Below, piece by piece: positions 2,168 to 17,120 of a stretch of DNA of 64,000 nt. Where the stretch lies: positions 372,001 to 436,000 of the forward strand of contig NZ_FOYL01000004.1 in NCBI RefSeq assembly GCF_900115955.1. Reading direction: 5' to 3'. This DNA comes from Lentzea waywayandensis (GTDB taxonomy: Bacteria; Actinomycetota; Actinomycetes; Mycobacteriales; Pseudonocardiaceae). How positions within the stretch are numbered: position 1 is the first letter of the stretch; each line of letters opens with the position of its first letter. Below the pieces are notes generated by a model. That model had not been told where the DNA came from. It saw only the letters and a program-made list of their open reading frames with translations, and did no database searches. The position numbers were made by a program, and so were the translations under genes.

Positions 2168-2247
2168 GCTCTCCACATCGCGCGCGCCTGGTGCCGCATT
2201 ACGCAGATCAGCGAATTTCCAGGGTTTCACACTTGCGCCGCATTCGT

Positions 2248-2287
2248 CTGCAAATGCGCTGCAGACAACCTTGCAGAGGTTCTGCAG
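2248..2287. promoter_or_regulatory. Four helically phased TGCA repeats upstream of PLL gene 1
   Basis: The 184-nt gap between the divergent GH89 and lysozyme-like genes contains TGCA(G/A) cores starting at 2249, 2260, 2272 and 2283, so the spacing is 11, 12 and 11 bp. The last core lies 69 bp before the ATG at 2352. The same motif with exact 11-bp spacing precedes the paralogous gene at 8599. Direct repeats at one-helical-turn spacing are what OmpR/PhoP-type winged-helix regulators bind; that regulator class is inference. Confidence 0.6.
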
Positions 2288-2351
2288 GCGTGGGCACAAC
2301 ACTTCGCATCATTGGTTCTTCCGGCAACGGAATTCTTGGGGGACAAGGACG

Positions 2352-3956
2352 ATGAGCAAGAAATTCGCCGCGCACGTCACAGCGGCGCTGGCCGCACTGC
2401 TGGTCGGCACGGGAACGGCATCCGCGGCGCCGAGCGACCTCTCACCGCAGCAGGTCATGGCCGAGTTCCCGGCGATGCCCTGCGTCGCGGGCGGCCCGAC
2501 CGCGGAGGACTCCGCACAGGCCGCCGCGCTCAACGCCCTGCTGACCGCCAAGATGCGCGGCAGCATGACGGCGTACAACACCTCGTGCGCCCGCGCCGTC
2601 GTGCAGGCGACCATGGCGCGGGGACTGCCGCTCCGAGCCGCCACGATCGCGCTCGCCACCACGATCGTCGAGACCGGCAACGCCAACCTCGACGGCGGTG
2701 ACCGGGATTCGATCGGCCTGTTCCAGCAGCGCCCCAGCATGGGCTGGGGCACCAGGGAACAATGCCTCGACCCCGTGTACGCGACCAACAAGTTCCTCGA
2801 CTACATGGTCACGAACGTGCCGAACTGGCAGACCAGGCCGGTCGGCGACGTGGCCCAGGCGGTACAGCGGTCCGGGTACCCCGAGCGCTACCAGCCCCAG
2901 GCCAACGATGCCGCGATCATCGCCGAAGCGCTGGTGCGCACGAACGAGTCAGCCTCGGTGGTGGTCGAAGCCAACGGTGCGATGCAGGTCTTCAACCGCG
3001 ACCGCAACACCGGTCTGCTCGCCACGAACTGGCAGAACGGACCCGGCCAGAACTGGGCCGGCTGGCACACCCCGCTGAACGTCCCCATGGCCGGCACGCC
3101 GTCGGCGTTGCTCGACCACCAGGGTCAGATGATCACGTTCTCCCGCCGCGGCGACGGACACCTCGTCCAGATGGCGCAGGACGGCCCCGACGGCGAGATC
3201 AAGACCTGGTGGGACCTCGGCGGCGACTTCGCCGGTGACCCCGTCGCGATCAAGCAGCCCAACGGAAACAAGGTCGTTTTCCTCCGCGGCACGGATGGCC
3301 AGCTCTGGCACAAGTGGCAGAACACCCCGGACGGCGAGTTCCAGCCGTCCGCGCTCGTGCACCCCGACCTGGGCGTCGTCACCGGCAGGCCGTCCGTTCT
3401 CGTCGACGAGAACAACCTGCTCACCGTGTTCACCGTGCGCTCGGACGGTCACCTGATCATGGCCGCCCAGCCCAGCAAGACCGCGGCCTGGGTGCAGTGG
3501 GACCTCGGCGGTGACTTCGCGGGCGACCCCGCTGTGGTCCGCACCGCCGACGGCAAGTTCGTCGTCTTCGTCCGCGGCACCGACGGCAAGCTCTGGGTCA
3601 AGTGGCAGAACGAGAAGGGCGGGATCTTCCCCGCCTCCGCACTCGTCAACCCCGGCTTCGGCCAGATCACCGGCGCACCCGCGGCCGTGATCAACCCCGA
3701 CGGCCTCGTCCAGGTCTTCGCACGCCGCGCCGACGGACACCTCGCCAGCGCCTGGCAGAGCAGCACGAGCGGCGGCGTCTACCAGGGCTTCGACGACATC
3801 GGCGGCAACCTCGCCAGCGACCCCGCCGTCGGCATGATGTCCAGCGGAGCCAAGGCGGTCTTCGCACGCTCCGCCGACGGCTCGATCATCACCACCTGGC
3901 AGCCCAAGCCGGGCGATCCCTTCAACCGCGCCTGGTCCTACCTGATCAGCAACTGA
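2352..3956 (+). CDS. Secreted lysozyme-like enzyme with seven-blade PLL-like propeller
   Basis: 534 aa. A signal peptide ends near residue 25 (LLVGTGTASAA|PSD). Residues about 30-195 resemble the actinobacterial lysozyme-like (transglycosylase-related) domain, with a probable catalytic Glu in IVETGN followed by DSIGLFQQRPSMGWGTREQ. Residues about 200-534 form seven repeats of about 47 aa (motifs such as VVFLRGTDGQLWHKWQN and ADGHL) like the Photorhabdus PLL/fucolectin seven-blade propeller. The likely role is cleavage of peptidoglycan or a related glycan with lectin-mediated targeting outside the cell. The ATG at 2352 follows GGACAAGGAC and directly precedes the signal peptide; the open frame extends upstream but codes nothing credible. 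Its paralogue at 8599 carries a different catalytic head. Confidence 0.75.
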   Translation: MSKKFAAHVTAALAALLVGTGTASAAPSDLSPQQVMAEFPAMPCVAGGPTAEDSAQAAALNALLTAKMRGSMTAYNTSCARAVVQATMARGLPLRAATIALATTIVETGNANLDGGDRDSIGLFQQRPSMGWGTREQCLDPVYATNKFLDYMVTNVPNWQTRPVGDVAQAVQRSGYPERYQPQANDAAIIAEALVRTNESASVVVEANGAMQVFNRDRNTGLLATNWQNGPGQNWAGWHTPLNVPMAGTPSALLDHQGQMITFSRRGDGHLVQMAQDGPDGEIKTWWDLGGDFAGDPVAIKQPNGNKVVFLRGTDGQLWHKWQNTPDGEFQPSALVHPDLGVVTGRPSVLVDENNLLTVFTVRSDGHLIMAAQPSKTAAWVQWDLGGDFAGDPAVVRTADGKFVVFVRGTDGKLWVKWQNEKGGIFPASALVNPGFGQITGAPAAVINPDGLVQVFARRADGHLASAWQSSTSGGVYQGFDDIGGNLASDPAVGMMSSGAKAVFARSADGSIITTWQPKPGDPFNRAWSYLISN

Positions 3957-4013: not shown

Positions 4014-6263
4014 TCAGTCCGAAGCGGACACCTGGGACCGTCGCCGACCGGCAACTGCCAGGTACAGGGCGTGCATCAACCCCAACGCCAGGGCACCGAC
4101 CAGCAACTTCCAGCCGAACCCGAGCCCCGGCGGCGAGAAGGTGAGGTCCACGGTGGACTCACCCGACGAGGCGGGGAGGTCGAGCTGGATCAACCCGGCG
4201 GGGCCCTGCTCCACCTTCACGTCCTTGCCGTCCACAGTGGCCGTCCACCCCGGCCACGCGAGCGCGGCGAACAGCGCCTTTCCGGACCCGCGGTAGGTGA
4301 CCCGCTCGCCCTCGAACCCGGTGGAGGCGGCGGAGACCACCTGCACGCCCGGTGACGCGTACGACAACCGCGATCCCGCGAACGGCAGGGGCGCGTCGCG
4401 CTTCAACACCGTGACCACGGAGTTGCGCTCCTGCACCGACCACCCGGCGGGGAGGCGCTCAGGCCCGTTCTCCTTGACGTACCCGTTCGCGACCACGACG
4501 GTCTGCAGCCGGACGGCGTCGGCCAGCGGCGTGGAGAACGATCCGGCGTTCTTCCACAGCGCGTTGTAGGCGGCGGGGCAGGTGCCGCCGAAGTAGTTCA
4601 TGCAGAACGTCTCGGAGAACGCGGAGTACCCGAGCCCGGTGTAGGAGTTGAGCGCGTCCACGCCCGCGATCTCCCACTGCGAGCCGAACAGCGCGTGCTG
4701 CCACGAGGTCTCGGGCGAGACGCCGCCGGAGTTCTTCTCGAGCACCCCGAGGTCCGCCACCAGCAGGGTGTTGCCCTGGTACCGGTCGTCGAAGTTCTTC
4801 TTCATCTCCGCCACGTTGTGCGGGAAGTTCCACGGGTTGACGTTGAGGTTGCCCCGGTAGTGCGCGACCTGCAGCCCCAGCGTGGCGGCCGTGCCGAAGA
4901 CGAGCACCAGCGCGACCAGCCTGGGCTTGGAGCGGGCCGCGTAGAGCACGGCGCCCAGCAGCACCAGCACCACGACCGCCGCCAGCCCGTGCCAGCGCCA
5001 CGCCGTCGGCGTCGAGGCCACGGACAAGTAGAAGCCGAGGCCGACGAGGACGCCGGTCAGCACCGCGCGGACCCGCCACGCCGACGTCTGGAAGCCCCTG
5101 GTCAGCAGCAGCGCGACGACCACCGACAGCGGCAGGTAGACGTACTCGAGCAGGCGCGCGGGCCAGCGGAACAGCCACAGGTTCGACGGGCCGATGAGCA
5201 GCAGCAGGTAGATGCCCGCGAACACGTAGAGGCCGAGGTAGTCGCGCCAGCGGTCGCGCAGCACCGACCAGGCGAGCCACGGCACCAGCGGCACCACGAA
5301 CCACGCCAGGTAGGTGATCGGGAAGCTGATCCAGCTGCCGGTCCAGGTGTTGAACTGCGCCTGGAACGTGGGGGCGCTCATGCCGAGCAGGTCGGCGAGG
5401 TTCGGCACCAGGAAGCCGTCGTTGCGGATCGAGTTGTCGGTGCGCCAGGTGACGGCGGCGCTGCCGAGCAGCGGGAAGAACACGACCAGCGACGAGGCGC
5501 CGACGAGGCCGCCGGTGACGACCAGGTGGCCGAGCTTGCGCCAGTTCTTGCGCACGGCGAGTTCGAGCGCGACGCCGAGCAGGATGAAGACGACACCGAG
5601 CGCGCCGTAGGGGTTGCCGACGGTCATCGCCAGGTAGCCGAAGACGAGCAGCCAGATCGGGTTCGACTTGCCGGTCGCGAAGCGGCGGGCGGCCCACCAG
5701 ACCCAGGGCAGCCAGGCGAACGCCATCAGGCCGGCGACCCAGGCCGAAGCGTCGAAGAAGAGCGTGTAGCCGGAGAACGGCAGGGCGGTCGCGACGACGG
5801 CTGCGGCACCGCGGTTGGCGCCGTACTCCCTGGCCAGCAGGTACACGCCGACGGCGAGCAGGACGAGGAACTCGGTCTTCACGAACGTCGCGGCCACGGC
5901 GACGTCCGGCAGCAGCGAGACGATCACGTAGTTGCCCAGCGACACCGGGTTCCACAGGCCGAGCATGGCCTCGCTGGCGTAGTTGCCGCCCATCCAGCTC
6001 TCGGGCATCAGCGTGGGCCAGTCGCCCTGCCGCAGCAGCTCACCGATGCGGTACCAGTGCGGGAGGAACGCGGCGGCCGAGTCGTCCCAGTAGTAGAAGA
6101 TCCGGTTGCGGATCAGCGGCAGTTGGGCGACGATCGCCACGAACGCGACGATCCCCGTGACGGTGAGAACACCTGACCAGCGACTCCGTGACCCCGGCCG
6201 CACGCCCTCTCCCGGGTCGGCCGACCCGGGACGATCAGCGGCTCTGGGTTCCGTGAGAGTCAC
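4014..6263 (-). CDS. Large multi-pass membrane protein, YfhO/GT-C-like
   Basis: 749 aa from GTG at 6263, which has AGGA 8 nt upstream; the TTG at 6269 is too close to that site. The first 40 residues are cytoplasmic, then about 12 hydrophobic segments run to residue ~500, followed by an extracytoplasmic region and a last membrane segment before a basic tail (AVAGRRRSQVSASD). The first loop contains YYWDDSAAAFLP and MGGNYASEAMLG. This architecture resembles YfhO-family or GT-C polyprenyl-linked glycosyltransferases that decorate surface polymers. It is divergent from a family 2 glycosyltransferase, which could make its lipid-linked sugar donor. Donor and acceptor cannot be told from sequence. 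Confidence 0.6.
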   Translation of the reverse strand: MTLTEPRAADRPGSADPGEGVRPGSRSRWSGVLTVTGIVAFVAIVAQLPLIRNRIFYYWDDSAAAFLPHWYRIGELLRQGDWPTLMPESWMGGNYASEAMLGLWNPVSLGNYVIVSLLPDVAVAATFVKTEFLVLLAVGVYLLAREYGANRGAAAVVATALPFSGYTLFFDASAWVAGLMAFAWLPWVWWAARRFATGKSNPIWLLVFGYLAMTVGNPYGALGVVFILLGVALELAVRKNWRKLGHLVVTGGLVGASSLVVFFPLLGSAAVTWRTDNSIRNDGFLVPNLADLLGMSAPTFQAQFNTWTGSWISFPITYLAWFVVPLVPWLAWSVLRDRWRDYLGLYVFAGIYLLLLIGPSNLWLFRWPARLLEYVYLPLSVVVALLLTRGFQTSAWRVRAVLTGVLVGLGFYLSVASTPTAWRWHGLAAVVVLVLLGAVLYAARSKPRLVALVLVFGTAATLGLQVAHYRGNLNVNPWNFPHNVAEMKKNFDDRYQGNTLLVADLGVLEKNSGGVSPETSWQHALFGSQWEIAGVDALNSYTGLGYSAFSETFCMNYFGGTCPAAYNALWKNAGSFSTPLADAVRLQTVVVANGYVKENGPERLPAGWSVQERNSVVTVLKRDAPLPFAGSRLSYASPGVQVVSAASTGFEGERVTYRGSGKALFAALAWPGWTATVDGKDVKVEQGPAGLIQLDLPASSGESTVDLTFSPPGLGFGWKLLVGALALGLMHALYLAVAGRRRSQVSASD

Positions 6264-6394
6264 AATCAAGATCCTTTCAGGTGCGGCACCGCTCCGGGCA
6301 TGCCCGAGCCAATCGGCATTCTGGGGTCACGTTAAAGTTGCTCGCCGTTACGGTCGTGTAAGACCGCCCGGACACAGTCTGCCAGGGAGAAAAC

Positions 6395-7141
6395 GTGGGA
6401 ACACCAGAGCCCACCGATCGGCTCGAGCTCAGCTACGTCATCCCCGCGTACAACAGCTCAGACGCGATCGAGGCCACGCTCAAGGAGCTGGGTGACCGGC
6501 TCCAGGGAACCCATTCCGAGATCCTCGTGGTGGAGAACGGGTCGACCGACGGCTCGCCGGAACTGCTCGCCAAGCTGGAGCACGACTGGCAGTTCGATGG
6601 GGTCGAGCTGCGCGTGCTGACCTCGGAGAAGGGTCTCGGCCACGCGCTGAAGAAGGGCATCGGCTCCTCGCGGGGCTCGTCGGTCGTGCTGAGCGCGGAC
6701 GACCTGCCGTTCGGGTTCGACGACCTGGACGAGGCGCAGAAGATCGGTCTGAACAAGCACAAGGTCATCATCGGTTCGAAGGCCCACCCGAAGTCGGACA
6801 TGGACCGCACGCTGCTGCGCGCGGTGCTGAGCACCGGCTTCCTGGTCCTTCGCTGGCTGATCCTCGGCATGAAGACCCGCGACCCGCAGGGCACCTTCGT
6901 GCTCGACGGCACGTGGGCGCGCGGTGTGGTCGGCAAGCTCACGGCGCCCGGCTTCCTGCTCACGACGGAGCTGGTCTACCTCGCCGAACTCGAGGGCAAC
7001 CACCCCGTCGAGGTCCCGGTGAAGCTGCGCCGCATCCACTCCGGCGCGGGCAGCACCATCCGCGTGTTCCACGACGCGTACACGATGGGCATCGGCCTGT
7101 TCAAGATCCGCAAGCTCCACCGCAGGACACACGGTCGCTGA
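6395..7141 (+). CDS. Family 2 glycosyltransferase, DPM1-like
   Basis: 248 aa from GTG at 6395 behind AGGGAG. The GT2 fold is clear: an N-terminal SYVIPAYNSSDAIEATL strand, VVENGSTDGSPELL, and an Asp-containing SADDLPFGF in the place of the metal-binding DXD. After residue 140 come FLVLRWLILGMKTRDPQGTF and a basic C-terminus, as in dolichyl/polyprenyl-phosphate mannose synthase relatives. No transmembrane domain follows. It probably transfers a sugar from a nucleotide donor to polyprenyl phosphate. Divergence from the YfhO/GT-C-like gene suggests a donor-plus-transferase pair; this is inference. Confidence 0.8.
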   Translation: MGTPEPTDRLELSYVIPAYNSSDAIEATLKELGDRLQGTHSEILVVENGSTDGSPELLAKLEHDWQFDGVELRVLTSEKGLGHALKKGIGSSRGSSVVLSADDLPFGFDDLDEAQKIGLNKHKVIIGSKAHPKSDMDRTLLRAVLSTGFLVLRWLILGMKTRDPQGTFVLDGTWARGVVGKLTAPGFLLTTELVYLAELEGNHPVEVPVKLRRIHSGAGSTIRVFHDAYTMGIGLFKIRKLHRRTHGR

Positions 7142-7295: not shown

Positions 7296-8468
7296 GTGCG
7301 TCAGATGATCGTCGTCGGGGGCGGGATCGTAGGGCTCTCGGTCGCCCGTGAACTGGCGCTGCGCGGCAACGCGGTCACCGTCCTCGAGAAGGAGGCCGGC
7401 TGGGCCGAGCACCAGACCGGTCACAACAGCGGCGTCCTGCATGCCGGTCTGTACTACAAGCCGGGTTCGCTGAAGGCCCGCATGTCGGTGGCGGGCAACG
7501 CGTCCATGGCCAGGTACGCCGAGGACAACGGCATCCCGATCGACATCTGCGGCAAGCTCGTCGTGGCCACCAGCGCCGAGGAGATCCCCCGCCTGCACGC
7601 ACTCGCCTCCCGCGCGGAGGCGAACGGCGTACCGGCCAAGCTGATCACCGCGGCCGAGGCGCGCGACTACGAGCCCGAAGTCTCGTGCGTCGCCGCGCTG
7701 CGCGTCGAGAGCACGGGCATCATCGACTTCCCCGCCGTCTGCGCGTCGCTCGTCCGCGGCCTCGGCGACCACGACCTGCGCCTGCGGTCACCGGCCCTGG
7801 CCATCCGCACCCGCGGCGACCGGGTCGAGGTGGCGACCCCTCAGGGCGTGGTCAGCGGCGACGCCCTGGTCAACTGCGCGGGCCTGCACAGCGATCGCGT
7901 CGCCCGGCTGGCCGGACTCCGGCCGGCCGCGACGATCGTCCCGTTCCGCGGCGAGTACTACGAACTGCGCCCCGAACGCAGGAACCTGGTGCGCGGCCTG
8001 ATCTACCCGGTCCCCGACCCCGCGCTGCCGTTCCTCGGCGTCCACCTGACCCGCATGATCGACGGCAGCGTGCACGCCGGCCCCAACGCCGTGCTGGCGC
8101 TGCGCCGCGAGGGCTACCGGTGGCGTGACTTCTCCCTCGGCGACGTGGCCGACATCGCCCGCTTCTCCGGCACGTGGAAGCTGGCCCGCCGGTTCGCGAG
8201 GACCGGTGTCGACGAGGTGCTGAGGTCGTTGTCCCGCAAGCGTTTCGCGGCCAGCCTCGCCCGGCTCGTGCCCGCCGTCGGTGAGGCCGACCTGGTGCGC
8301 GCCAAGGCGGGCGTGCGGGCGCAGGCCATGCTGCCGGACGGCTCACTGGTCGACGACTTCCTCATCGAGTCCGCACCGCGCCAGATCCACGTCCTGAACG
8401 CGCCGTCCCCCGCCGCCACGGGTGCGCTGGAGATCGCGAAGCACGTCGCCGACCTGATTCGGAAGTGA
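7296..8468 (+). CDS. lhgO: L-2-hydroxyglutarate oxidase
   Basis: 390 aa, a DAO-family FAD-dependent oxidoreductase. GTG at 7296 follows an AGGAGGTGG site. The Rossmann dinucleotide-binding motif is at residues 5-20 (VVGGGIVGLSVARELALRG), followed by the LhgO-specific TGHNSGVLHAGLYYKPGS and, near residue 200, NCAGLHSDRVARLAG. The C-terminus has HVLNAPSPAATGALEIA. It oxidises L-2-hydroxyglutarate to 2-oxoglutarate, repairing a side product of central metabolism or feeding electrons to the respiratory chain. It is transcribed alone, with about 130 nt to the next gene. Length and motif order match the family. Confidence 0.92.
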   Translation: MRQMIVVGGGIVGLSVARELALRGNAVTVLEKEAGWAEHQTGHNSGVLHAGLYYKPGSLKARMSVAGNASMARYAEDNGIPIDICGKLVVATSAEEIPRLHALASRAEANGVPAKLITAAEARDYEPEVSCVAALRVESTGIIDFPAVCASLVRGLGDHDLRLRSPALAIRTRGDRVEVATPQGVVSGDALVNCAGLHSDRVARLAGLRPAATIVPFRGEYYELRPERRNLVRGLIYPVPDPALPFLGVHLTRMIDGSVHAGPNAVLALRREGYRWRDFSLGDVADIARFSGTWKLARRFARTGVDEVLRSLSRKRFAASLARLVPAVGEADLVRAKAGVRAQAMLPDGSLVDDFLIESAPRQIHVLNAPSPAATGALEIAKHVADLIRK

Positions 8469-8499: not shown

Positions 8500-8530
8500 G
8501 GCTTGCAGATGGCTTGCAGAAGGCTTGCAG
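8500..8530. promoter_or_regulatory. Three perfect 11-bp direct repeats upstream of PLL gene 2
   Basis: GGCTTGCAG occurs at 8500-8508, 8511-8519 and 8522-8530, exactly 11 bp apart; the last TGCA core is 73 bp before the ATG at 8599. The same core and spacing precede the paralogue at 2352. This suggests a common activator or repressor binding one face of the helix. Confidence 0.7.
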
Positions 8531-8598
8531 CCGTAGCCCGGATCGTTTGTCCTGCCGGACGGAGAGTCCAGCGGAACGAACTCGATGGGGGCTACGAG

Positions 8599-10149
8599 AT
8601 GAACGTCCGAACCACCGTGGTGGCGACCACAGCGATCTTCGCGGCGATGCTGGGGGCGCAGGCACCAGCCGCCACCGCGGCGGAGCAGGGCAACGACCTG
8701 CAGATCCTTCTGGCCTGCAGCTCGTACGCGACGAACAAACCGGTGACACGCAGCGAGGTGATCAACAGAGCCCAGTCGTGGATCGACGCGGGGGTCACCT
8801 ACAACCAGGGCGGCTGCTACGGCAACCAGTACGGCGAGTACCGCATGGACTGCTCGGGGATGACGTCCATGGCGTGGGGGCTCAGCTTCTCGCACACCAC
8901 CTACACGCTCGACCAGGTCTCGCACGTCATCCCGCGCTCCGAGCTCAAGCCCGGTGACGCGCTGAACAAGTACGACGAGCACGTCGCGATCTTCGCGGGG
9001 TGGGCGGACGCGGCGCGAACGCAGCCGATCATGCTGAACCACGGCGGCGATCCGGTCTACGCGCACCGCACCGTCTGGTCGGCCGAGTTCGCGGCCCGCT
9101 TCACGCCGATCCGCTACGACAACATCGTCGACGACGTCGTGACGGGGAACGAAGCTCCGTCCGTGGTGGTGGAGGGCAACGGGGCGATGCAGGCCTTCGC
9201 CCGCGACACCAACACCGGCAAGCTCGTCACCTCGTGGCAGTCGGCCGCCGGCTCCAACTGGAGCGGCTGGACGAACCTGCCCACCAACGCGGTCGGCACG
9301 CCGTCCGCGCACCTGGACCACCTCGGCCAGATGAACGTCTTCACCCGCCGCGACGACGGCCACCTGATCCACCTGTGGCAGGACGGCCCGGATGGTGCCA
9401 TCGACCGCGGTGCCGACCTCGGCGGTGACTTCTCCGGCGATCCGGTCGTGATCACCAAGTCGGACAACACGAAGGTCGTGTTCATCCGCGGCACGGACGG
9501 CCGGCTGTGGCACAAGTGGCAGACCACGCCCAGTAGCGCGTTCAGCGCCTCCGCCCTGGTCCGCAGCGACTTCGGCACGATCATCGGCAAGCCATCCGCC
9601 CAGGTCGACGCCCAGGGAAGGCTGACCGTCTTCGCCGTCCGCTCCGACAACCACCTGATCAACGCGTGGCAGACCGAGCCCGGCGGCGAGTTCACCATCG
9701 CCGACCTCGGCGGGGCGTTCGCCGGTGACCCCGTCGCGATCACCAAGTCGGACAACACGAAGGTCGTGTTCATCCGCGGCACGGACGGCCGGCTGTGGCA
9801 CAAGTGGCAGACCACCCCCGGTAGCGCGTTCAGCGCCTCCGCCCTGGTCCGCGACGACTTCGGGCAGGTCCTCGGCGCACCCGCCGTCCAGGTCTCCAAC
9901 GACGCCATCCAGGTGTTCGCCCGCCGCGCCGACGGCCACCTGATCACCGCCTGGCAGTACTCCTCGGGCGGCGCCTTCACCGGCGTCGACGACATCGGCG
10001 GCAACCTCAGCACCGACCCCGTCATCAGCAGGCAGGCCAACGGCACCAAGGCCGCCTACGCCCGCTTCACCGACGGCTCGATCATGACCACCTGGCAGAA
10101 CACCGCCAATGACGCGTTCCGCAAGACCTGGTCCTACCTCAGCAAGTGA
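8599..10149 (+). CDS. Secreted NlpC/P60-like peptidase with seven-blade PLL-like propeller
   Basis: 516 aa. A signal peptide ends at about residue 28 (LGAQAPAATAA|EQG). Residues about 45-180 look like an NlpC/P60-type cysteine peptidase: the Cys of YRMDCSGMTSMAW as nucleophile and the His of YDEHVAIFAGW as base. Such domains cut peptide stems of peptidoglycan. Residues about 190-516 are seven repeats of about 47 aa, closely related to those of the protein at 2352. ATG at 8599 directly precedes the signal peptide; the frame extends upstream through the regulatory repeats and is not coding there. With its paralogue it forms a pair joining different wall-cleaving heads to one sugar-binding propeller. 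Family assignment of the head is by motif only. Confidence 0.75.
   Translation: MNVRTTVVATTAIFAAMLGAQAPAATAAEQGNDLQILLACSSYATNKPVTRSEVINRAQSWIDAGVTYNQGGCYGNQYGEYRMDCSGMTSMAWGLSFSHTTYTLDQVSHVIPRSELKPGDALNKYDEHVAIFAGWADAARTQPIMLNHGGDPVYAHRTVWSAEFAARFTPIRYDNIVDDVVTGNEAPSVVVEGNGAMQAFARDTNTGKLVTSWQSAAGSNWSGWTNLPTNAVGTPSAHLDHLGQMNVFTRRDDGHLIHLWQDGPDGAIDRGADLGGDFSGDPVVITKSDNTKVVFIRGTDGRLWHKWQTTPSSAFSASALVRSDFGTIIGKPSAQVDAQGRLTVFAVRSDNHLINAWQTEPGGEFTIADLGGAFAGDPVAITKSDNTKVVFIRGTDGRLWHKWQTTPGSAFSASALVRDDFGQVLGAPAVQVSNDAIQVFARRADGHLITAWQYSSGGAFTGVDDIGGNLSTDPVISRQANGTKAAYARFTDGSIMTTWQNTANDAFRKTWSYLSK
9451..9863 (+). repeat. Near-identical blade duplication inside the PLL propeller
   Basis: Bases 9451-9575 and 9739-9863 are almost identical (offset 288 bp, 96 codons), covering blades 3 and 5 (ITKSDNTKVVFIRGTDG...). 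Other blades differ much more at DNA level. This points to recent unequal exchange or gene conversion within the gene. Confidence 0.8.
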
Positions 10150-10205: not shown

Positions 10206-11432
10206 TCAGCTTTGGACGGTCACCAGGCGGGTGAACTCCGCGGGCAGGTTGAAGCCGTCCCAGTGGTCGGAGAACGTCAGCGCGTTGCCGAACGGCACGA
10301 TGCGGTCGATGCCGCGCCCGGCCAGTTCGTGCGCCAGCGTCTCCAGCTCCTCCTGCGAGAAGCCGAACACCGACAGCGTCTGGTCCTTGCGCTGCACCAT
10401 GGGCACCAGCGCGGACAGCGTCGGCAGCGTGGCGAACGGGAAGGTGCCCGCGCCCAGCCACTCGCGCGGCACGTCCGCCGCCGCCGTCAGCTCCAAGGTG
10501 GCCACCGCGTTGCCGTCGAACGAGATGGACTTCGCGTGGCCGTCCGCCGCGACACCGTAGGCGGAGACGCGCTTCTGCACGGCCATCGCGGGTTCGACGA
10601 CGTGGTTCTTGGCTTCGAGCACGGCGGTCAGCTCGGCCCGGAACTCGGTCCGCGCCTGCTGGCCCGCGACCTCGTCACCGACCCAGAACAGGGCGCGCGG
10701 CGACGAGCAGGCGGCCTGGTCGAACCAGTACGAGTCGTTGTAGAAACCGACGGCCACTTCGCGCTTCTTCTCCGGCGTCGCGGAAACCCAGCCGTCGACG
10801 GAGATCAGGGCGAACGAGGCGCGGTCGGGGAACGTGACGTCGCGCGCGTGCGGCGCGAGCGGCATCTTGCGCACCTCGTTGACGGCGCGGTCACCGCCCC
10901 AGATGACGCGCAGGTCGCACGCCGCGGACAGGGCGGCGGTGACCTTGTCGTCGCGGTCGTAGGTGACCATGACCTGGGTCTGCGCGACGGCCGGGTGGGC
11001 GTCCTTCAGCGCGTCGTTCAGCGCCTCGACGACGGCCTCCGCCGCACCCGCCGAACGCGGCGAGATGCGCACGACGTTGCTGTTGCCCGCCAACGCGGAC
11101 AGCGCCCACGAGTACACGAAGATCGTGTCGACGTTGGCCGGCGGGATGTGGAAGACGAGACCGCGGCCGAAGCGCAGCACGCCCTGCGGGGTCTCCAGCT
11201 GGCGCAGCACCTTGTTGATCTCGCCGCGGCGCAGGAAGAAGCCGAGCGACGCGAGCTCCGGGTAGCGGCGGGCCATCTGCGGGGCGAGCAGCTTGCGCGC
11301 GAACTTCACCAGGAAGTCGACGATCCGCTCGTCGCCGACCTTCAGCCGGCCGTCGGTGGGCTCGCCGGAGATGCTCGCGAGGAGCTCGTCGACCGAGGAG
11401 ACGTCAGATCCTGCCGGGAAACGGCGCTTCAT
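10206..11432 (-). CDS. LuxC-like acyl-protein/acyl-CoA reductase
   Basis: 408 aa. It matches the LuxC family (acyl reductase of the lux fatty-acid reductase complex), which reduces an acyl thioester to an aldehyde with NADPH. Visible features are an aldehyde-dehydrogenase-like fold, HIPPANVDTIFVYSWALSALAGN as nucleotide-binding region, and a candidate acylated Cys in DQAACSSPRALFW near residue 240, the place of the LuxC active cysteine. It is the last gene of a six-gene minus-strand operon, overlapping the LuxE-like gene by 4 bp. No luciferase genes (luxAB) or LuxD lie nearby, so bioluminescence is not implied. The aldehyde's chain and fate are unknown. Confidence 0.85.
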   Translation of the reverse strand: MKRRFPAGSDVSSVDELLASISGEPTDGRLKVGDERIVDFLVKFARKLLAPQMARRYPELASLGFFLRRGEINKVLRQLETPQGVLRFGRGLVFHIPPANVDTIFVYSWALSALAGNSNVVRISPRSAGAAEAVVEALNDALKDAHPAVAQTQVMVTYDRDDKVTAALSAACDLRVIWGGDRAVNEVRKMPLAPHARDVTFPDRASFALISVDGWVSATPEKKREVAVGFYNDSYWFDQAACSSPRALFWVGDEVAGQQARTEFRAELTAVLEAKNHVVEPAMAVQKRVSAYGVAADGHAKSISFDGNAVATLELTAAADVPREWLGAGTFPFATLPTLSALVPMVQRKDQTLSVFGFSQEELETLAHELAGRGIDRIVPFGNALTFSDHWDGFNLPAEFTRLVTVQS

Positions 11433-12484
11433 GAGGCCACAGCTCCAGAGAAGGTGTCCGAACAGCCGCGCGCCTCGGCCCGCGGAAGCCTGCCGAGCAC
11501 GGAGAACCGCTTGCCCGGCCAGTCGCCGTCGTCGATGCCGTGCACCACACCGAGGTCCTCGGTCAGCAGCACGTGGCCCGGGTAGCTGCGGGGCAGCGTC
11601 GAGACGACCTCGATGACACCGGGAACGCCGACGGGCTGTTCCTCCCAGGTCTCCGGGTTGCGGATGATCACGTCCGCGAAGTCCGGGCAGTACAACGAGT
11701 TCCCGGAGCGGCCTTCGAGGAAGACCGTGCCGATCTGCTCGATCATCCCGTAGTAGTTGTAGATCTGGGTCAGACCCGTGTCCTGCGCGAAGCGCTTGCG
11801 GAACTCCGCGTTGTCGACCGCGATGTCGATCAGCTTCTTCCAGCCACCGGAGTGGATCAGGATGCCGTTCGACAGGTCGAGCTTGTGCTCACGCGCGACC
11901 TCGTAGAGGTACTGCCACACCATGAAGGTGAAGCCGAAGATCAGGAACGGCTCCGAGCCGTGCTTGGCGAGGAACTCCTTGACCGCCTCGACGTCCGGCT
12001 GGTCGTTCTCGTCCAGCGCGTAGACGTGACTGCGGCCGAACGTCGCCATGCCCAGCACGCCGGCGCCACGAGCGGAGAACGAGCGGCGGTTCTTGATGAT
12101 GCTGATGGTGTCGACCATCAGCATCGGCAGCCGCTTGCCGCCGAGCACCTCCTGCAGCGTCGCGCCGAGCTGGCGGGTCTGCACCGCGGCGGCGTCCTTG
12201 TCCAGGTAGATCCGCGAGGCGCCACCGCCGGTCGTGCCGGACGACGTGAGCACCTTGAAGACCTCGGAGTCCGGAATGGACTTGAGCTCGTGCGTCTTGA
12301 ACATGCGCACCGGCAGCCACGGCAGGTCGTTCAGCGACCCGAACTGCTCGCCGGACTTGATGCCGAGCGACGACAGGATCCGGTCGTACTGCTCGGAGTT
12401 CGCGCGGTGGTGCTCGGTCAGCTCGGTCAGTTCGGCCAGCAGCGCGGTCTCGCGCTCGGCCTGATTGCGCCCGAAGACGCTCAT
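11429..12484 (-). CDS. LuxE-like acyl-protein synthetase
   Basis: 351 aa, LuxE/PaaK superfamily. LuxE activates a fatty acid as acyl-AMP, loads it on its own C-terminal Cys and hands it to LuxC. Here the ATP-binding LTSSGTTGGGASRIYLD is at about residues 80-95, and YNYYGMIEQIG near residue 245. The C-terminus reads RAEARGCSDTFSGAVAS, putting a Cys exactly 10 residues from the end, where LuxE carries its acyl group. It overlaps both neighbours by 4 bp, so translation is coupled. Intact catalytic residues argue for an active enzyme. The acyl donor could be free acid or the operon's ACP. Confidence 0.85.
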   Translation of the reverse strand: MSVFGRNQAERETALLAELTELTEHHRANSEQYDRILSSLGIKSGEQFGSLNDLPWLPVRMFKTHELKSIPDSEVFKVLTSSGTTGGGASRIYLDKDAAAVQTRQLGATLQEVLGGKRLPMLMVDTISIIKNRRSFSARGAGVLGMATFGRSHVYALDENDQPDVEAVKEFLAKHGSEPFLIFGFTFMVWQYLYEVAREHKLDLSNGILIHSGGWKKLIDIAVDNAEFRKRFAQDTGLTQIYNYYGMIEQIGTVFLEGRSGNSLYCPDFADVIIRNPETWEEQPVGVPGVIEVVSTLPRSYPGHVLLTEDLGVVHGIDDGDWPGKRFSVLGRLPRAEARGCSDTFSGAVAS

Positions 12485-13854
12485 ACCTGTGCCTCCAGTG
12501 ACCGGTAGTCGATCTTGCCGCTGGGCAGTTGCGGGAAACCCTCGGCCGGACGCACGTCGAAGCCCGTGACGTGCAGGTGCAGCGTCTCGGACAGCAACTT
12601 CGCGGCCTGCTTGCAGGTGTCCTTCTCGGCCCCGTCGAGGAAGACGACGACCTTGTCGCCCGCGGGCACGGCGGCGGCCGCGCCGAAGCCCTTCACGATC
12701 TGCTCCAGGTCGTCCAGGTTGACCCGGTTGCCGAACACCTTGCCGATTCGCTTGAGCCGGCCGGTGATGTAGAGGAACCCGTCGGCGTCGAGGTAACCGA
12801 GGTCGCCGGTGACGAGCACGCCGCCGGTCTCGTCGCCGAGAGCGAGCTCGGCTTCGGACTCGGCGTAGCCCATCATCACGTTCGGCCCGCGGTACACCAC
12901 CTCACCGGCAACACCGGCCTCGGCGATTTCGTTCCCGGCCTCGTCGCGGATCGCGAACGTGCCGCCGGGAAGCGCGGGACCTGCGGAACCGACCTTCTCG
13001 GCGAGCCGCTCGGACGGCACGGTGGCCATCCGCGGCGCGGCCTCGGTCTGGCCGTACATCACGAACATCTGCCCGCCGGCGGCGCGCATCTTGTCGTTGA
13101 ACTCGCTGATCAGGTCGCTGCGGAGCTTGCCGCCGGCCTGCGTCAGCGTGCGCAGCGTCGGGTACTTGGCCGGGTCGAACCGCAGCCTGCGCAGCATCTC
13201 GTAGTGGTACGGGACACCTGCGAGCGACGTCACGCCGTACCGCGTGACCGCGTCCCAGAACGGCCGCGCCACCACGCCGGAGCCCTCCAGCAGCACCGTC
13301 GCGCCCTGGCGCAGGTGGCTGTTGAGCACGGACATGCCGTAGCTGTAGTGCAGCGGCAGGCTGGTCGGCGCGACCTCGTTCTCGTCGATGCCCAGCACCT
13401 CGGCGATCGCGTCGGCGTTCGCGAGGATCGCCGAGCGGGACAGCCGCACGAACTTGGGGTTACCGGTCGAGCCGCTGGTCGGCAGCATCACCGCCAGGTC
13501 GGGGTGCGGGGCGACGCCGTCCGCGTCCTCGCGCACCCAGTCCGGCGAGTACCCCGGCGCGGGTTCGTCGTCGATGCCCAGCACGGCCGCGGGGCGGAAG
13601 CGGGCGACGAGCCCGTCCAGCACCTCGCGGTCCTGCGCCGGGTCGAGCAGCGCGACCGCGCGGCCCGCCTCGAACGCACCCAGGTACCGCAGCACGCTCG
13701 TCAGGTCCAGGCCGACCCGGAGGAACAGCACCCCGGACGGCAGATCGGCGAGTTCCTTCGCCGCCTCGGACACGCGACCGGCGAGCTCGGCACCGCCGAG
13801 CAGCTCACCGGTCGCGGCGTCACGCAGGCGGGCCTGAGCGTGCAGCAGCGTCAC
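12481..13854 (-). CDS. AMP-binding acyl ligase, short form
   Basis: 457 aa, ANL adenylating superfamily. Core motifs are in order: PTSGSTGNPK (P-loop), MYGQTEAAPR, TGDLGYLD, RLKRIGKVFGNRVNLDDLE, and PSGKIDYR with the C-terminal catalytic Lys. The N-terminal domain is about 60 aa shorter than in typical acyl-CoA synthetases. It should activate a carboxylic acid as acyl-AMP and load the ACP of this operon (fatty acyl-ACP ligase role) or CoA. It overlaps LuxE-like and the reductase gene by 4 bp on each side. Two adenylating enzymes in one operon suggest two acids, or activation at two stages. Confidence 0.85.
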   Translation of the reverse strand: MTLLHAQARLRDAATGELLGGAELAGRVSEAAKELADLPSGVLFLRVGLDLTSVLRYLGAFEAGRAVALLDPAQDREVLDGLVARFRPAAVLGIDDEPAPGYSPDWVREDADGVAPHPDLAVMLPTSGSTGNPKFVRLSRSAILANADAIAEVLGIDENEVAPTSLPLHYSYGMSVLNSHLRQGATVLLEGSGVVARPFWDAVTRYGVTSLAGVPYHYEMLRRLRFDPAKYPTLRTLTQAGGKLRSDLISEFNDKMRAAGGQMFVMYGQTEAAPRMATVPSERLAEKVGSAGPALPGGTFAIRDEAGNEIAEAGVAGEVVYRGPNVMMGYAESEAELALGDETGGVLVTGDLGYLDADGFLYITGRLKRIGKVFGNRVNLDDLEQIVKGFGAAAAVPAGDKVVVFLDGAEKDTCKQAAKLLSETLHLHVTGFDVRPAEGFPQLPSGKIDYRSLEAQV

Positions 13855-14585
13855 AGCACCAAACCTCCGTCGATCCCGAGCACCTGACCGGTGACGAACG
13901 AGGCGTCGTCACTGCTCAGGAATCGGATCACCTTGGCCACTTCTTCCGGCGTGCCGAGCCGGCCGAGGGCGGTGTCGCCCTTCACCCGCTCCAGCACCTC
14001 GTCGGACTGCTCGGAGATCAGGTCGGTCTGGATCACGCCGGGCGCGACCGCGTTGACCCTGATCCCGTACCGGCCGAGCTCCTTCGCCGCGGACTTCGCC
14101 GCCGCGACCAGCGCCGCCTTGGACGCCGCGTAGACCATCTGACCCGCGTTGCCGCGTTCGCCGACGATCGAGCCGATCAGCACGATCGAGCCGGTGCGCT
14201 TGCGCATCATGGCCCGCGCCGCCGCCTGCACGGAGTTGATCGTGCCGGCGACGTTCGTGGTCAGCGTCTTGTTCACGTGCTCGTCGGTGAGCATGCCGAT
14301 GAGGCCGCCCTCCAGCACGCCCGCGCTGGCCACGAGCACGTCGATGCGCCCGTGCTCCTTCGCGATCGCCTTGAAGACGTCCTTGATCGCGGCGGAGTCG
14401 GCGACGTCGAGCGCCACGCCGTGGACGCGTTCGCCCAGCTCGGCAGCACGCTTCTCGGTGGTCTCGCGGTCGCGGCCGGTGATGACGACGGTGGCGCCCG
14501 CCTCGGCCAGCGCCGCGGCGGTGGCGAAGCCGATGCCGCGCGTGCCGCCGGTGACGACCGCTACCTTGCCGGCGAAATCACTCAC
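13851..14585 (-). CDS. SDR family 3-oxoacyl-ACP reductase-like (FabG type)
   Basis: 244 aa, the usual FabG length. The NADP-binding GGTRGIGFATAAAL is at residues 12-25, the catalytic Ser in VLIGSIVGE, and YAASK near residue 150; VNAVAPGVIQTD and a C-terminal GQVLGIDGG complete the classical SDR pattern. It likely reduces a 3-oxoacyl group on the neighbouring ACP to the 3-hydroxy form, which is the kind of acyl chain LpxA-like enzymes accept. Its start overlaps the ACP gene's end by 8 bp. Confidence 0.88.
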   Translation of the reverse strand: MSDFAGKVAVVTGGTRGIGFATAAALAEAGATVVITGRDRETTEKRAAELGERVHGVALDVADSAAIKDVFKAIAKEHGRIDVLVASAGVLEGGLIGMLTDEHVNKTLTTNVAGTINSVQAAARAMMRKRTGSIVLIGSIVGERGNAGQMVYAASKAALVAAAKSAAKELGRYGIRVNAVAPGVIQTDLISEQSDEVLERVKGDTALGRLGTPEEVAKVIRFLSSDDASFVTGQVLGIDGGLVL

Positions 14586-14817
14586 CCGCGCCGAAGCCCT
14601 TCAGCATGTCGACGGCGACCTTGAAGCTGCTCATGTCGATGACCTGCTCGGTCTCGAACTGGACGTCGAACTCGTCCTCGATGGCGGCGACGAGCGCCAT
14701 GTGGCCGACCGAGTCCCACTCATCGATGTCGCGGTACTTCAGGTTCTCGACGTCAACCGAGTCGTCGAGCTGGAGGGCGTCCACGAAGACACCACGAAGA
14801 CGGTCGTTCAGGGACAT
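14578..14817 (-). CDS. Acyl carrier protein
   Basis: 79 aa, acidic, with the phosphopantetheine site Ser36 in EWDSVGHMALV. Helix II and III sequences (VAAIEDEFDVQFETEQVIDM) are typical of stand-alone ACPs from specialised pathways rather than the housekeeping fatty-acid ACP. It carries acyl chains for the ketoreductase and ligase encoded next to it and possibly for the LpxA-like transferase. The gap to the upstream acyltransferase gene is 31 nt. Confidence 0.92.
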   Translation of the reverse strand: MSLNDRLRGVFVDALQLDDSVDVENLKYRDIDEWDSVGHMALVAAIEDEFDVQFETEQVIDMSSFKVAVDMLKGFGAGE

Positions 14818-14848
14818 CGTTCTCTCGTTCTCTCGGACGGTCTGGGTC

Positions 14849-15547
14849 TCAGTGCTCGTTCGAACGCTCGGTCCACGCCTTGAGCAGCGCGGCGAGCTCC
14901 TCCGGCAGGCCGGCGGGAACCTCCGCCTCCTTGCCGGTCAGGAAACCGGTGAGAGCGGCGATCGCGTCCTCGTCGCAGCCGCGCCGCGACAGGCCGATGA
15001 CGTTGACGCCGGTCGTGCGGGCCGGGTTGCCCAGCGTGATGGTGAACGCACCGACCTCCTTGCGGATGGCCGAGCCGAGCCCGATCATCGCGCCGGGGCC
15101 GATCTGGACGCCCTGGTGCACGACGGTGCCGAGGCCGATGTTGGAGCCGCTCCACACGTGGCAGTGGCCGGCGATCTGCACGGCGCTCGTGATCACGACG
15201 CTGTTGTCGATCGTGCAGTCGTGCGCGACGTGCGCGCGGCCCATCACGTAGTTGTCGCTGCCCAGCGTCGTGGCGTGGCTGACGCCCTGGTTGATCGTGA
15301 CGAACTCGCGGATGCGGTTGCGGTCGCCGATCACCACGCCGGGGCCGTCGTTCTCGCCGTCCCAGCCGGCCAGGTGCGGCGCGCTCAGGTACTCGGCGGG
15401 GCCGCCGATGCTGACGTGCGGGCCGATGAAGTTGCCGTCACCGATCCGGGCGGGCCCGGCGATGATCGTGTACGGCCCGATCACGTTGTCGTCGCCGATC
15501 TCGACGTCCTTGCCGATGATCGCGGTCTCGTGAATGCGGTTCGCCAC
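14849..15547 (-). CDS. LpxA-like left-handed beta-helix acyltransferase
   Basis: 232 aa of hexapeptide repeats ([LIV]-G-x4) from residue 3 on: IHETAIIGKDVEIGDDNVIGP, and so on. It keeps the LpxA signature RAHVAHDCTIDNSVVI, whose second His matches the catalytic His125 of E. coli LpxA. LpxA moves a 3-hydroxyacyl chain from ACP to UDP-GlcNAc for lipid A, which Gram-positive bacteria do not make, so the acceptor here must be different, for example a nucleotide sugar for a surface glycolipid (inference). The C-terminal 40 residues replace LpxA's helical tail. First gene of the ACP/LuxCE operon. Confidence 0.82.
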   Translation of the reverse strand: MANRIHETAIIGKDVEIGDDNVIGPYTIIAGPARIGDGNFIGPHVSIGGPAEYLSAPHLAGWDGENDGPGVVIGDRNRIREFVTINQGVSHATTLGSDNYVMGRAHVAHDCTIDNSVVITSAVQIAGHCHVWSGSNIGLGTVVHQGVQIGPGAMIGLGSAIRKEVGAFTITLGNPARTTGVNVIGLSRRGCDEDAIAALTGFLTGKEAEVPAGLPEELAALLKAWTERSNEH

Positions 15548-15657: not shown

Positions 15658-17025
15658 CTAGGAGTTGAGCAGGCTGAGACTCGCGTCCATCACGATTCGT
15701 TCAGTGGTACCGGCGGCGGGCACCGCGGTGTCCGAGAACTTCAGCGGGCCCGGCCACGCGTAGGAGACGCAGTAGCTGCCGAGCCCCGCGATGACGTTGT
15801 CGCCCTGGTTCCACCCCGCCTCGTAGCCGCCGTGCAGGTTGCCGCCGGAGCGCAGCGTGTCGTTGTCCGCGACGTAGCCCTCGCACTCGTTGGCGTATCC
15901 CATGACCCAGAGGTTTCCGGGGAACGCCGCGTGGAGGTTCACGTCGTAGGCCGACACCGGCTCGTGGGCGAGAGCGAGGATGCTCAGGCCGCCGAACCGC
16001 CAGCGCTGGATCGGCATCGGCATCGAGGTGGGCAGTTCGCCCGCGTCGATCAGCTTCACCATCATCGCGGCGTGCCGCCGGTTCGGGTCCGTCTGCGGCA
16101 TCACCTTGAGCCGGAGCTTGTACTTCGCGCGGACCGCGGCCCGCACGTCCGGATCGGCGGTGTCGGTGTGGAACGGCAGGTCGACCTCGGTCATCGCCGT
16201 GCTGATGGGTCCCGTGACGGCGTCGAAGTCGTCGCCGAGGACGTCGAGGACCGCCTGGCCGAGGACCGTGCCCAGTTCCTCGGTGGTGGCCGGGACGTGC
16301 GGGTCGTTCGCCTCCTGGTCGCCGCACGCGCCCTGGACGAACAGCGCGGGCACGCCCAGCTCGTTCTCGACGAGCTCGGAGGCGACGGCCGGGAACTCGC
16401 TGTCGAACACCTCGTCGTTGCCGCGCGAGACCGGGTGGCACGCCGCTCCGAAGACCACGGCGAACAGGTCACCGCCGGTCGTGTCGAGGCGTAGCACCGG
16501 CACGGTGTCGAGCACGGCGAAGTCGTCCGCCACCCGGTTGTGGCCGATCTTGGCCTCGCCCTCGGCGTAGGACAGCGTGACGTCGGTGCGCTCCAGGTCC
16601 AGCGTGTCGCGGACCAGCTGCACCAGCGCGTCGGTGATCAGCCACGTCGTGCCGTTGACCGCGTCGATGTCGGCCTGGGTCAGGCCCATCATCACCTGCG
16701 GGCTCGGCTTGGTGTCCCCGTACAACGGGCCCGAGTGCGTGTGGCTCGCCAGCAGCATCAGGTCGTCCGCGGCGACCAGTCCCTCGCTGACGAGGGTCCC
16801 CCTGATCGCCTGGTTGACGTCCCTCGGGATGCTGATGAGATCCGCGCGCAGCAGGACCTTCGGCGCACCACCGTCCCAGAGCACGAGGCACTGGGCACGT
16901 AACCGGCGGGCGATCGCGCCGTGGTTGCCGCGCGGGCTCCACCCGTACCCGCCCATCCACAGACTCGGATAGGGCGGGTGCACCGGCGTGATGTCGACTT
17001 CGCCGACCGCTGCTTCAAAAGACAT
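15658..17025 (-). CDS. Neutral/alkaline ceramidase-like hydrolase
   Basis: 455 aa. ATG at 17025 follows GGGGGTAG. It resembles the N-terminal catalytic domain of the neutral/alkaline non-lysosomal ceramidase family: VGEVDITPVHPPYPSLWMGGY, LLASHTHSGP (zinc-binding His pair), GAACHPVS, QGACGDQEANDP, and MGYANECEGYVADN. It lacks the family's C-terminal beta domain and has no signal peptide, so it is probably cytoplasmic. Ceramidases split N-acyl amides; many bacterial homologues act on unknown amides or esters. It sits 110 nt upstream of the ACP/LuxCE operon on the same strand, so a linked lipid substrate is possible. Confidence 0.8.
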   Translation of the reverse strand: MSFEAAVGEVDITPVHPPYPSLWMGGYGWSPRGNHGAIARRLRAQCLVLWDGGAPKVLLRADLISIPRDVNQAIRGTLVSEGLVAADDLMLLASHTHSGPLYGDTKPSPQVMMGLTQADIDAVNGTTWLITDALVQLVRDTLDLERTDVTLSYAEGEAKIGHNRVADDFAVLDTVPVLRLDTTGGDLFAVVFGAACHPVSRGNDEVFDSEFPAVASELVENELGVPALFVQGACGDQEANDPHVPATTEELGTVLGQAVLDVLGDDFDAVTGPISTAMTEVDLPFHTDTADPDVRAAVRAKYKLRLKVMPQTDPNRRHAAMMVKLIDAGELPTSMPMPIQRWRFGGLSILALAHEPVSAYDVNLHAAFPGNLWVMGYANECEGYVADNDTLRSGGNLHGGYEAGWNQGDNVIAGLGSYCVSYAWPGPLKFSDTAVPAAGTTERIVMDASLSLLNS

Positions 17026-17120
17026 GACAACTACCCCCTGCTTGCCGACACCACACCCCCATGTGGGTTCTGCAATGAGGACGCCGTCAGGCCCGGCGAA
17101 ATACAGGTTTTGGGAAAGTT

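Follow-up and report, generated by a model that had tools for sequence, protein, structure and literature searches.

The 64,000-nucleotide window analysed here (Lentzea waywayandensis, assembly GCF_900115955.1, contig NZ_FOYL01000004.1, positions 372,001 to 436,000) carries an operon of six genes, all on the minus strand. The operon runs from window position 15547 down to 10206, with the gene of an LpxA-like acyltransferase first and the gene of a LuxC-type reductase last. On balance, we favor the reading that a short hydroxyacyl group is formed by the operon on an acyl carrier protein (ACP) of its own and then transferred to an amino sugar, presumably to the 3-amino group of UDP-GlcNAc3N. The operon appears to be a kit, common to many actinobacteria, for loading an uncommon small acid onto a carrier protein and from there onto an amino sugar of the cell surface. 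The cassette of the last five genes is not of an undescribed kind, because it has been published in flagellar glycosylation islands. What appears to be new is its link to LpxA and GnnA/GnnB in Gram-positives; a GnnA/GnnB/LpxA-linked cassette in actinobacteria was not found in the open-access literature searched by title and abstract.

We infer the following substrates and order of steps. The LuxE-type protein would start from a small acid, probably a dicarboxylic one, and activate one of its carboxylates, first as an acyl-adenylate and then as an acyl-enzyme thioester. The LuxC-type protein would convert the thioester to an aldehyde, and a short-chain dehydrogenase/reductase (SDR) would convert the aldehyde to an alcohol. 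A ligase forming adenosine monophosphate (AMP) would then activate the remaining carboxylate and load the hydroxyacid on the ACP. GnnA- and GnnB-like enzymes would make UDP-GlcNAc3N from UDP-GlcNAc, and the LpxA-like enzyme would transfer the hydroxyacyl group from the ACP to the 3-amino group of this sugar. The acylated sugar may then pass to a lipid carrier and to the cell wall, possibly to arabinogalactan. The overall path would thus run from a diacid through a semialdehyde, a hydroxyacid and a hydroxyacyl-ACP to an N-acyl sugar. The likeliest acyl groups are dihydroxybutanoyl (tetronyl-type) and 4-hydroxybutanoyl.

It is established that in luminous bacteria LuxE and LuxC together turn a carboxylate into an aldehyde. 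The initial annotation of the operon, made from the sequence, had assigned them the reduction of another acyl group, separate from the one carried by the ACP. A simpler reading is that the acid loaded by the ligase is itself the product of LuxE, LuxC and the SDR.

The layout given in the initial annotation, six minus-strand genes with four of the five junctions overlapping by 4-8 bp, was confirmed. The first gene (14849..15547) codes for the LpxA-like protein, a left-handed beta-helix acyltransferase of 232 aa and the putative N-acylating enzyme for UDP-GlcNAc3N. After a gap of 31 bp it is followed by the gene of the ACP (14578..14817, 79 aa). The subsequent junctions overlap by 8, 4, 4 and 4 bp and lead to the genes of a FabG-like SDR (13851..14585, 244 aa), the AMP-forming acid ligase (12481..13854, 457 aa), the LuxE-type acyl-protein synthetase (11429..12484, 351 aa) and the LuxC-type acyl-thioester reductase (10206..11432, 408 aa). 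A promoter and terminator scan, with a sigma-70 consensus unsuited to this organism, found nothing, and a tRNA scan found none.

Four of the proteins were assigned above the Pfam cut-offs: LuxC to PF05893 (105.7 bits, cut-off 21), LuxE to PF04443 (153.5 bits, cut-off 24.9), the ligase to PF00501 (144.6 bits, cut-off 29.9) and the SDR to PF13561 (216.9 bits, cut-off 27), with a 3-oxoacyl-ACP reductase as the top-scoring model of the SDR. The LpxA-like protein matched the hexapeptide family PF00132 (73.2 bits, cut-off 27). Its best NCBIfam model was LpxA PRK05289 (175.5 bits, under the cut-off of 226), and TIGR01852 gave 155.7 bits (under the cut-off of 231); the LpxA equivalog level was not reached. 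The ACP was a weak match by Pfam (PF00550, 18.9 bits, under the cut-off of 20.8). Its ortholog at locus L036 clears this family with 22.5 bits, and the predicted structure of the window ACP resembles E. coli butyryl-ACP (TM-scores 0.82/0.85, E-value 1.2e-3).

Matches to solved structures agree with these assignments for LuxE (E-value 1.9e-15), LuxC (1.2e-4) and the LpxA-like protein (3.4e-35 to LpxA). A further match of the LpxA-like protein is 8e62, an N-acetyltransferase that acts in making a diacetamido-2,3-dideoxy sugar. Its fold model has a modest mean predicted local distance difference test score (64); LpxA entries rank first with a TM-score of about 0.5, and the predicted fold contributes little beyond the sequence match.

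The catalytic residues are intact, as had been claimed, and do not vary. We aligned the proteins of the window with those of 80 loci found with LuxE (81 rows), and for the LpxA-like protein the 54 copies adjoining an ACP gene. LuxE C341, LuxC C242 and ACP S36, the attachment site within a WDS motif, are invariant in 81/81 sequences, as is the ligase K447. Tyr152 and Lys156 of the SDR are invariant in all 78 aligned sequences, and H109 in the catalytic histidine motif of the LpxA-like protein in all 54 copies.

Several features point to a short acyl group. The closest PDB entries of the ligase are oxalyl-CoA synthetase, a non-ribosomal peptide synthetase and oxalate-CoA ligase, followed by 2-succinylbenzoate-CoA ligase. 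The chain-length position of the LpxA-like protein is Met in 48 and Leu in 6 of the 54 copies; we take this position to align with Gly173 of E. coli LpxA. Since the ligase relatives are small-acid ligases and a peptide synthetase, and since the chain-length position holds Met or Leu, the acyl group is probably short.

The initial annotation had proposed that the operon builds a 3-hydroxyacyl chain on the ACP and transfers it to a sugar. The neighboring genes do imply that the LpxA-like enzyme hands an ACP-bound acyl group to an amino sugar. The building of a chain was not supported: neither ketosynthase nor dehydratase, nor a thioesterase, was seen among the scanned genes, a selected part of the neighborhood, and the residue at the chain-length position is bulky. 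A fatty acid synthase that builds chains was rejected because no ketosynthase was seen among the scanned genes. A medium-chain 3-hydroxyacyl-ACP, from fatty acid synthesis or via the SDR, could nevertheless be used by the LpxA-like enzyme to make a lipid-like sugar, with LuxE and LuxC making a fatty aldehyde for another use. LpxA is the closest solved family to the LpxA-like protein, the SDR scores highest on a 3-oxoacyl-ACP reductase model, and Met at the ruler position permits C10 in P. aeruginosa LpxA. Still, the lack of ketosynthase, dehydratase and thioesterase among the scanned genes, the similarity of the ligase to small-acid ligases, and the presence of the same cassette with PseB in 13/80 loci, none of which has an LpxA-like gene adjoining the ACP gene, make this alternative rather unlikely.

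Conservation of the genes as a set was assessed in a profile search of genome contigs with the LuxE alignment. The search gave at least 557 confirmed stretches, from which 80 loci were kept for counts (loci L036-L049 were left out). The counts are conditional on LuxE, and the loci share ancestry; judging by the names in their titles, we take all of them to be actinobacterial, with 36 from Amycolatopsis. The order ACP, SDR, AMP ligase, LuxE, LuxC is unbroken in 77 of the 80 loci. The SDR is absent in the other three (L112, L117 and L122), while LuxE and LuxC occur in all 80, as loci picked by LuxE. The LpxA-like gene stands directly before the ACP gene in 53 loci.

A sugar aminotransferase of one of three types was found within 10 kb in 79 of the 80 loci; the exception, L105, lies on an 18.6-kb contig. 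By chance, roughly 0.01 matches would be expected per 21-kb stretch (a GnnB-type query had 5 matches in 10.15 Mb of the own genome). This proximity speaks against a role of the operon in secondary metabolism or aldehyde signalling with no relation to glycans, an idea suggested by the fact that the LuxE and LuxC families are named for aldehyde synthesis; we consider such a role very improbable.

We also observed that the sugar genes near the cassette vary with the presence of the LpxA-like gene. Of the 53 loci with the LpxA-like gene at the ACP gene, 52 have a GnnA-like gene no more than 10 kb away, compared to 8 of the 27 others (Fisher p 3e-11, shared ancestry ignored). Conversely, PseB lies within 10 kb in 0/53 compared to 13/27 loci (Fisher p 6e-8, shared ancestry ignored). 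The counts within 10 kb shift by 1-2 with the identity threshold (for example, GnnA-like 51 compared to 52 of 53, and the LhgO count given below 14 compared to 15), and the higher values were used. At locus L130, PseB clears its NCBIfam model (486.9, cut-off 407.75), and PseC and PseG stay under their cut-offs. Such associations show that the cassette of five genes accompanies two or more sugar pathways, one with GnnA/GnnB/LpxA-like genes and another with PseB, PseC, PseG and a cytidylyltransferase. A PF03706 membrane protein is present in 57 of the 80 loci, and in 44 its gene lies on the same strand, 1.5-3.5 kb past the LuxE start.

The five gene types also occur on plasmids: adjacent and in cassette order in Deinococcus (L148), with LuxC set apart in Ponticoccus (L149), and in a changed arrangement in Rhizobium (L150), where a gene annotated as LpxA and a DegT gene accompany them. 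Among 60 genomes, the own genome included, PF04443 is present in 23 and is of two kinds. The first kind (15 genomes) comprises orthologs with the AMP ligase and LuxC adjoining; the second is a distant LuxE/LuxC pair that matches at about 20-48% over short or long stretches. The own genome has such a second pair (G000:C23:552261-554533, L050) amid GNAT, SDR, sub-threshold AMP-binding and tetrapyrrole-methylase genes, and other members of the genus carry pairs like it. Beside the cassette at L036 (13048-18032) and L037 (3370-8330) we observed a mini-cluster of a LegB-like dehydratase, a DegT protein, a hexapeptide acetyltransferase, a GT4 and a PF03706 protein, which hints that the glycan contains another amino sugar as well.

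Within the genus, the LpxA-like, GnnB-like and GnnA-like genes are found together, in an identical set of 17 out of 24 genomes; LuxE and ACP likewise share one set of 12, every one within the 17. The sugar branch can therefore be separated from the acyl cassette, and an LpxA-like enzyme could work with a donor other than the cassette product. Two separate reactions may then exist, one in which the LpxA-like enzyme acylates GlcNAc3N from a housekeeping donor, and another in which the cassette product goes to a different sugar by a different transferase. The five genomes with the sugar branch and no cassette (genes were listed for two of them, L151 and L153) agree with this idea, as do the LpxA-like copies that lie away from the ACP gene and yet near the cassette at L088, L091 and L107. 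On the other hand, the LpxA-like gene directly precedes the ACP gene in most loci, and a tree of 60 LpxA-like rows splits the 55 operon copies from the five off-operon copies with support 100/99, although the branches are long and the tool warned of unsure placements. We regard two separate reactions as unlikely, if the least so among the alternatives.

The five cassette-free genomes count as well against the proposed delivery of a short hydroxyacyl group from the ACP to UDP-GlcNAc3N, and several other observations weigh on the same side. Three aligned LpxA-like copies from cassette-free genomes also have Met at the chain-length position, so this residue does not separate cassette-linked from cassette-free copies. 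Three of the 12 cassette genomes have some 8-9 kb between LuxC and the LpxA-like gene, the SDR is missing in three loci, all from Amycolatopsis, and locus L064 (Amycolatopsis echigonensis) has another gene in the LpxA-like position. Two GnnA-like orthologs score 189 and 140 on NF040723, their best family, under the cut-off of 450. For the GnnB-like protein, the PDB search ranked perosamine synthetases, enzymes that act at C4, at the top, with WbpE lower down. By eye, the frame at L064:5913-6983 reads as an ATP-grasp enzyme, and a HAD-like frame comes after it.

In the own genome, the GnnB-like gene (G000:C22:369546-370730, about -2454 to -1270 in window numbering; PF01041, 398 bits) and the GnnA-like gene (G000:C22:370742-371686, about -1258 to -314) lie just to the left of the window, about 10.5-12.7 kb from the LuxC end. 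The closest PDB entries of the GnnA-like protein are 7bvj/7bvk (E-value 3.2e-28), which we take to be GnnA of A. ferrooxidans. To the left of these genes are a PF03706 protein, Glf and GlfT2, and farther left a GT2 and an ABC-2 permease; because of these neighbors we read the locus as a probable arabinogalactan locus. One luciferase-family gene (PF00296) lies beside glf, outside the window. It was taken as unrelated because a look-alike stands, by eye, beside GnnA/GnnB without the cassette in L153.

The genes of a YfhO-like protein, a GT2 and LhgO are located in the stretch from the GnnA-like gene to the operon. The GT2 glycosyltransferase (6395..7141, plus strand; PF00535, 52.4 bits) may, tentatively, be the enzyme that moves the sugar onto a lipid carrier. 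The YfhO-like polytopic membrane protein (4014..6269, minus strand), with a short C-terminal match to PF09586 (30.8 bits, cut-off 28.5), is a tentative candidate for a surface glycosyltransferase; the pair presumably resembles glycan-decorating pairs of Firmicutes. The L-2-hydroxyglutarate oxidase LhgO (7296..8468, plus strand; NF008726, 522.9 bits, cut-off 299) was found within 10 kb in 15 of the 60 loci with a GnnA-like gene compared to none of the 20 without (Fisher p 0.017, shared ancestry ignored). Dehydrogenases of the WbpB/WlbA type recycle NAD+ by reduction of 2-oxoglutarate; LhgO may therefore be a helper, a tentative role, that restores 2-oxoglutarate from the 2-hydroxyglutarate made by the GnnA-type dehydrogenase. 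The available part of PMC8040287 makes no mention of such recycling.

Other genes flank the operon. Two proteins with DUF346 repeats are encoded at 1752-3956 and 8503-10149. A neutral-ceramidase-like protein (PF04734, 22.3 bits, under the cut-off of 32.1) is encoded at 15658-17073, between serS and the operon, and occurs in only some of the Lentzea loci compared.

Among known systems, the bioluminescence fatty acid reductase LuxC-LuxE (7xc6) aligns with the operon proteins at the catalytic cysteines of both. As a difference, the operon LuxC and LuxE fall far under the NCBIfam equivalog cut-offs (43.9 of 750 and 63.4 of 550). Neither luxAB nor luxD is among the six genes (the initial annotation had noted no luciferase), and light production was rejected.

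Leptospira has a GnnA-GnnB-LpxA branch of lipid A with GlcN3N. The same branch is described for Acidithiobacillus in the available part of PMC8036547. With it the Lentzea system shares, at the level of that description, a Gfo/Idh dehydrogenase, a DegT transaminase and an LpxA-like acyltransferase. It differs in having its own ACP and an acyl-making cassette, with a probably short acyl group, and in a genome with no LpxC or LpxB matches. Lipid A was accordingly rejected as a product, and its absence bears out what had been assumed for a Gram-positive.

For V. cholerae, we take VC0248-VC0252 to be rfbK-rfbO, also named wbeK-wbeO; the tetronate set includes an ACP, an AMP ligase, a LuxC part and a hexapeptide transferase, with LuxE and LuxC presumably fused and an iron-type alcohol dehydrogenase. 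According to the parts of the sources at hand, the amino group of perosamine in V. cholerae O1 bears tetronate, the synthesis of which was assigned to VC0248-VC0252 by putative function (PMC3441752), and RfbN, placed in the tetronate pathway, has a LuxE domain (PMC4772473). By description, this set and the operon alike have a LuxE-type protein for an acid that N-acylates an amino sugar. The operon differs in its separate LuxE and LuxC, in an SDR instead of the alcohol dehydrogenase, and in the sugar. The V. cholerae tetronate chemistry with the SDR replacing the alcohol dehydrogenase gives a coherent path for the operon.

The closest relatives in print are the Aeromonas group II flagellar glycosylation islands, where, in the portion of the source available, an ACP, a 3-oxoacyl-ACP reductase, an AMP synthetase, luxE and luxC occur with pse genes (PMC7874193). 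The available part of a second source has the five-gene cassette in Enterobacteriaceae (PMC4875605), and in both the cassette is described as fatty-acid related. With these two reports, and with a LuxE-type protein assigned to tetronate synthesis (PMC4772473; PMC3441752), the claim of an undescribed pathway in the initial annotation could not be upheld, and its interpretation is partly supported overall. Compared by gene description, the Aeromonas islands have the same five gene types in the same listed order beside amino-sugar genes. They differ in carrying pse genes in a Gram-negative, where the Lentzea operon goes with GnnA/GnnB/LpxA-like genes at an actinobacterial wall locus; 13 of the 80 actinobacterial loci have a PseB-linked form as well. 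In our reading, the Aeromonas, Enterobacteriaceae and V. cholerae sets may work alike.

The Aeromonas flagellins offer a chemical cross-check. As given in the part of PMC7874193 at hand, strain AH-3 (group II) carries a 376.14 Da pseudaminic acid (Pse) derivative and a 102 Da moiety of unknown identity. The calculated mass of Pse5Ac7Ac is 316.127, and replacing one acetyl group with dihydroxybutanoyl gives 376.148, compared to 360.153 for hydroxybutanoyl; C4H6O3 has a calculated mass of 102.032. The fit of dihydroxybutanoyl on Pse to the AH-3 sugar is a hint, not proof, and isobaric groups such as O-methylglyceroyl, which fit both masses as well, count against reading more into it. For AH-1, the available part of PMC4691044 gives a single pseudaminic-type sugar of 403 Da, while one figure legend says '376 Da sugar'.

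The same masses bear on the idea that the ligase loads acetoacetate or hydroxybutyrate, which the FabG-like SDR reduces on the ACP to 3-hydroxybutanoyl, with LuxE and LuxC serving another need. Such groups are frequent on bacterial amino sugars, as stated in the part of PMC8074265 at hand, and the SDR is indeed FabG-like. However, the 376.14 Da sugar is not matched by the calculated 360.153, and it is the SDR that is missing in three loci, while LuxE and LuxC are present in all of those picked by LuxE; we find the idea improbable.

Returning to a hydroxyacyl group prepared by LuxE, LuxC and the SDR, we tentatively put forward a wider proposal, possible but doubtful as a whole. A portable 'acyl swap' module would reduce a small diacid and present the product on its own ACP. 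In Gram-positive actinobacteria, which make no lipid A, it would have been combined with a GnnA/GnnB/LpxA branch; there a relative of LpxA would N-acylate UDP-GlcNAc3N with a dihydroxybutanoyl-like group, and the sugar would go to the arabinogalactan wall. Such a module would also explain the 376 Da sugar of Aeromonas flagellin and perhaps the 102 Da moiety. The idea of a cassette-linked acyl group makes these unexplained masses directly testable.

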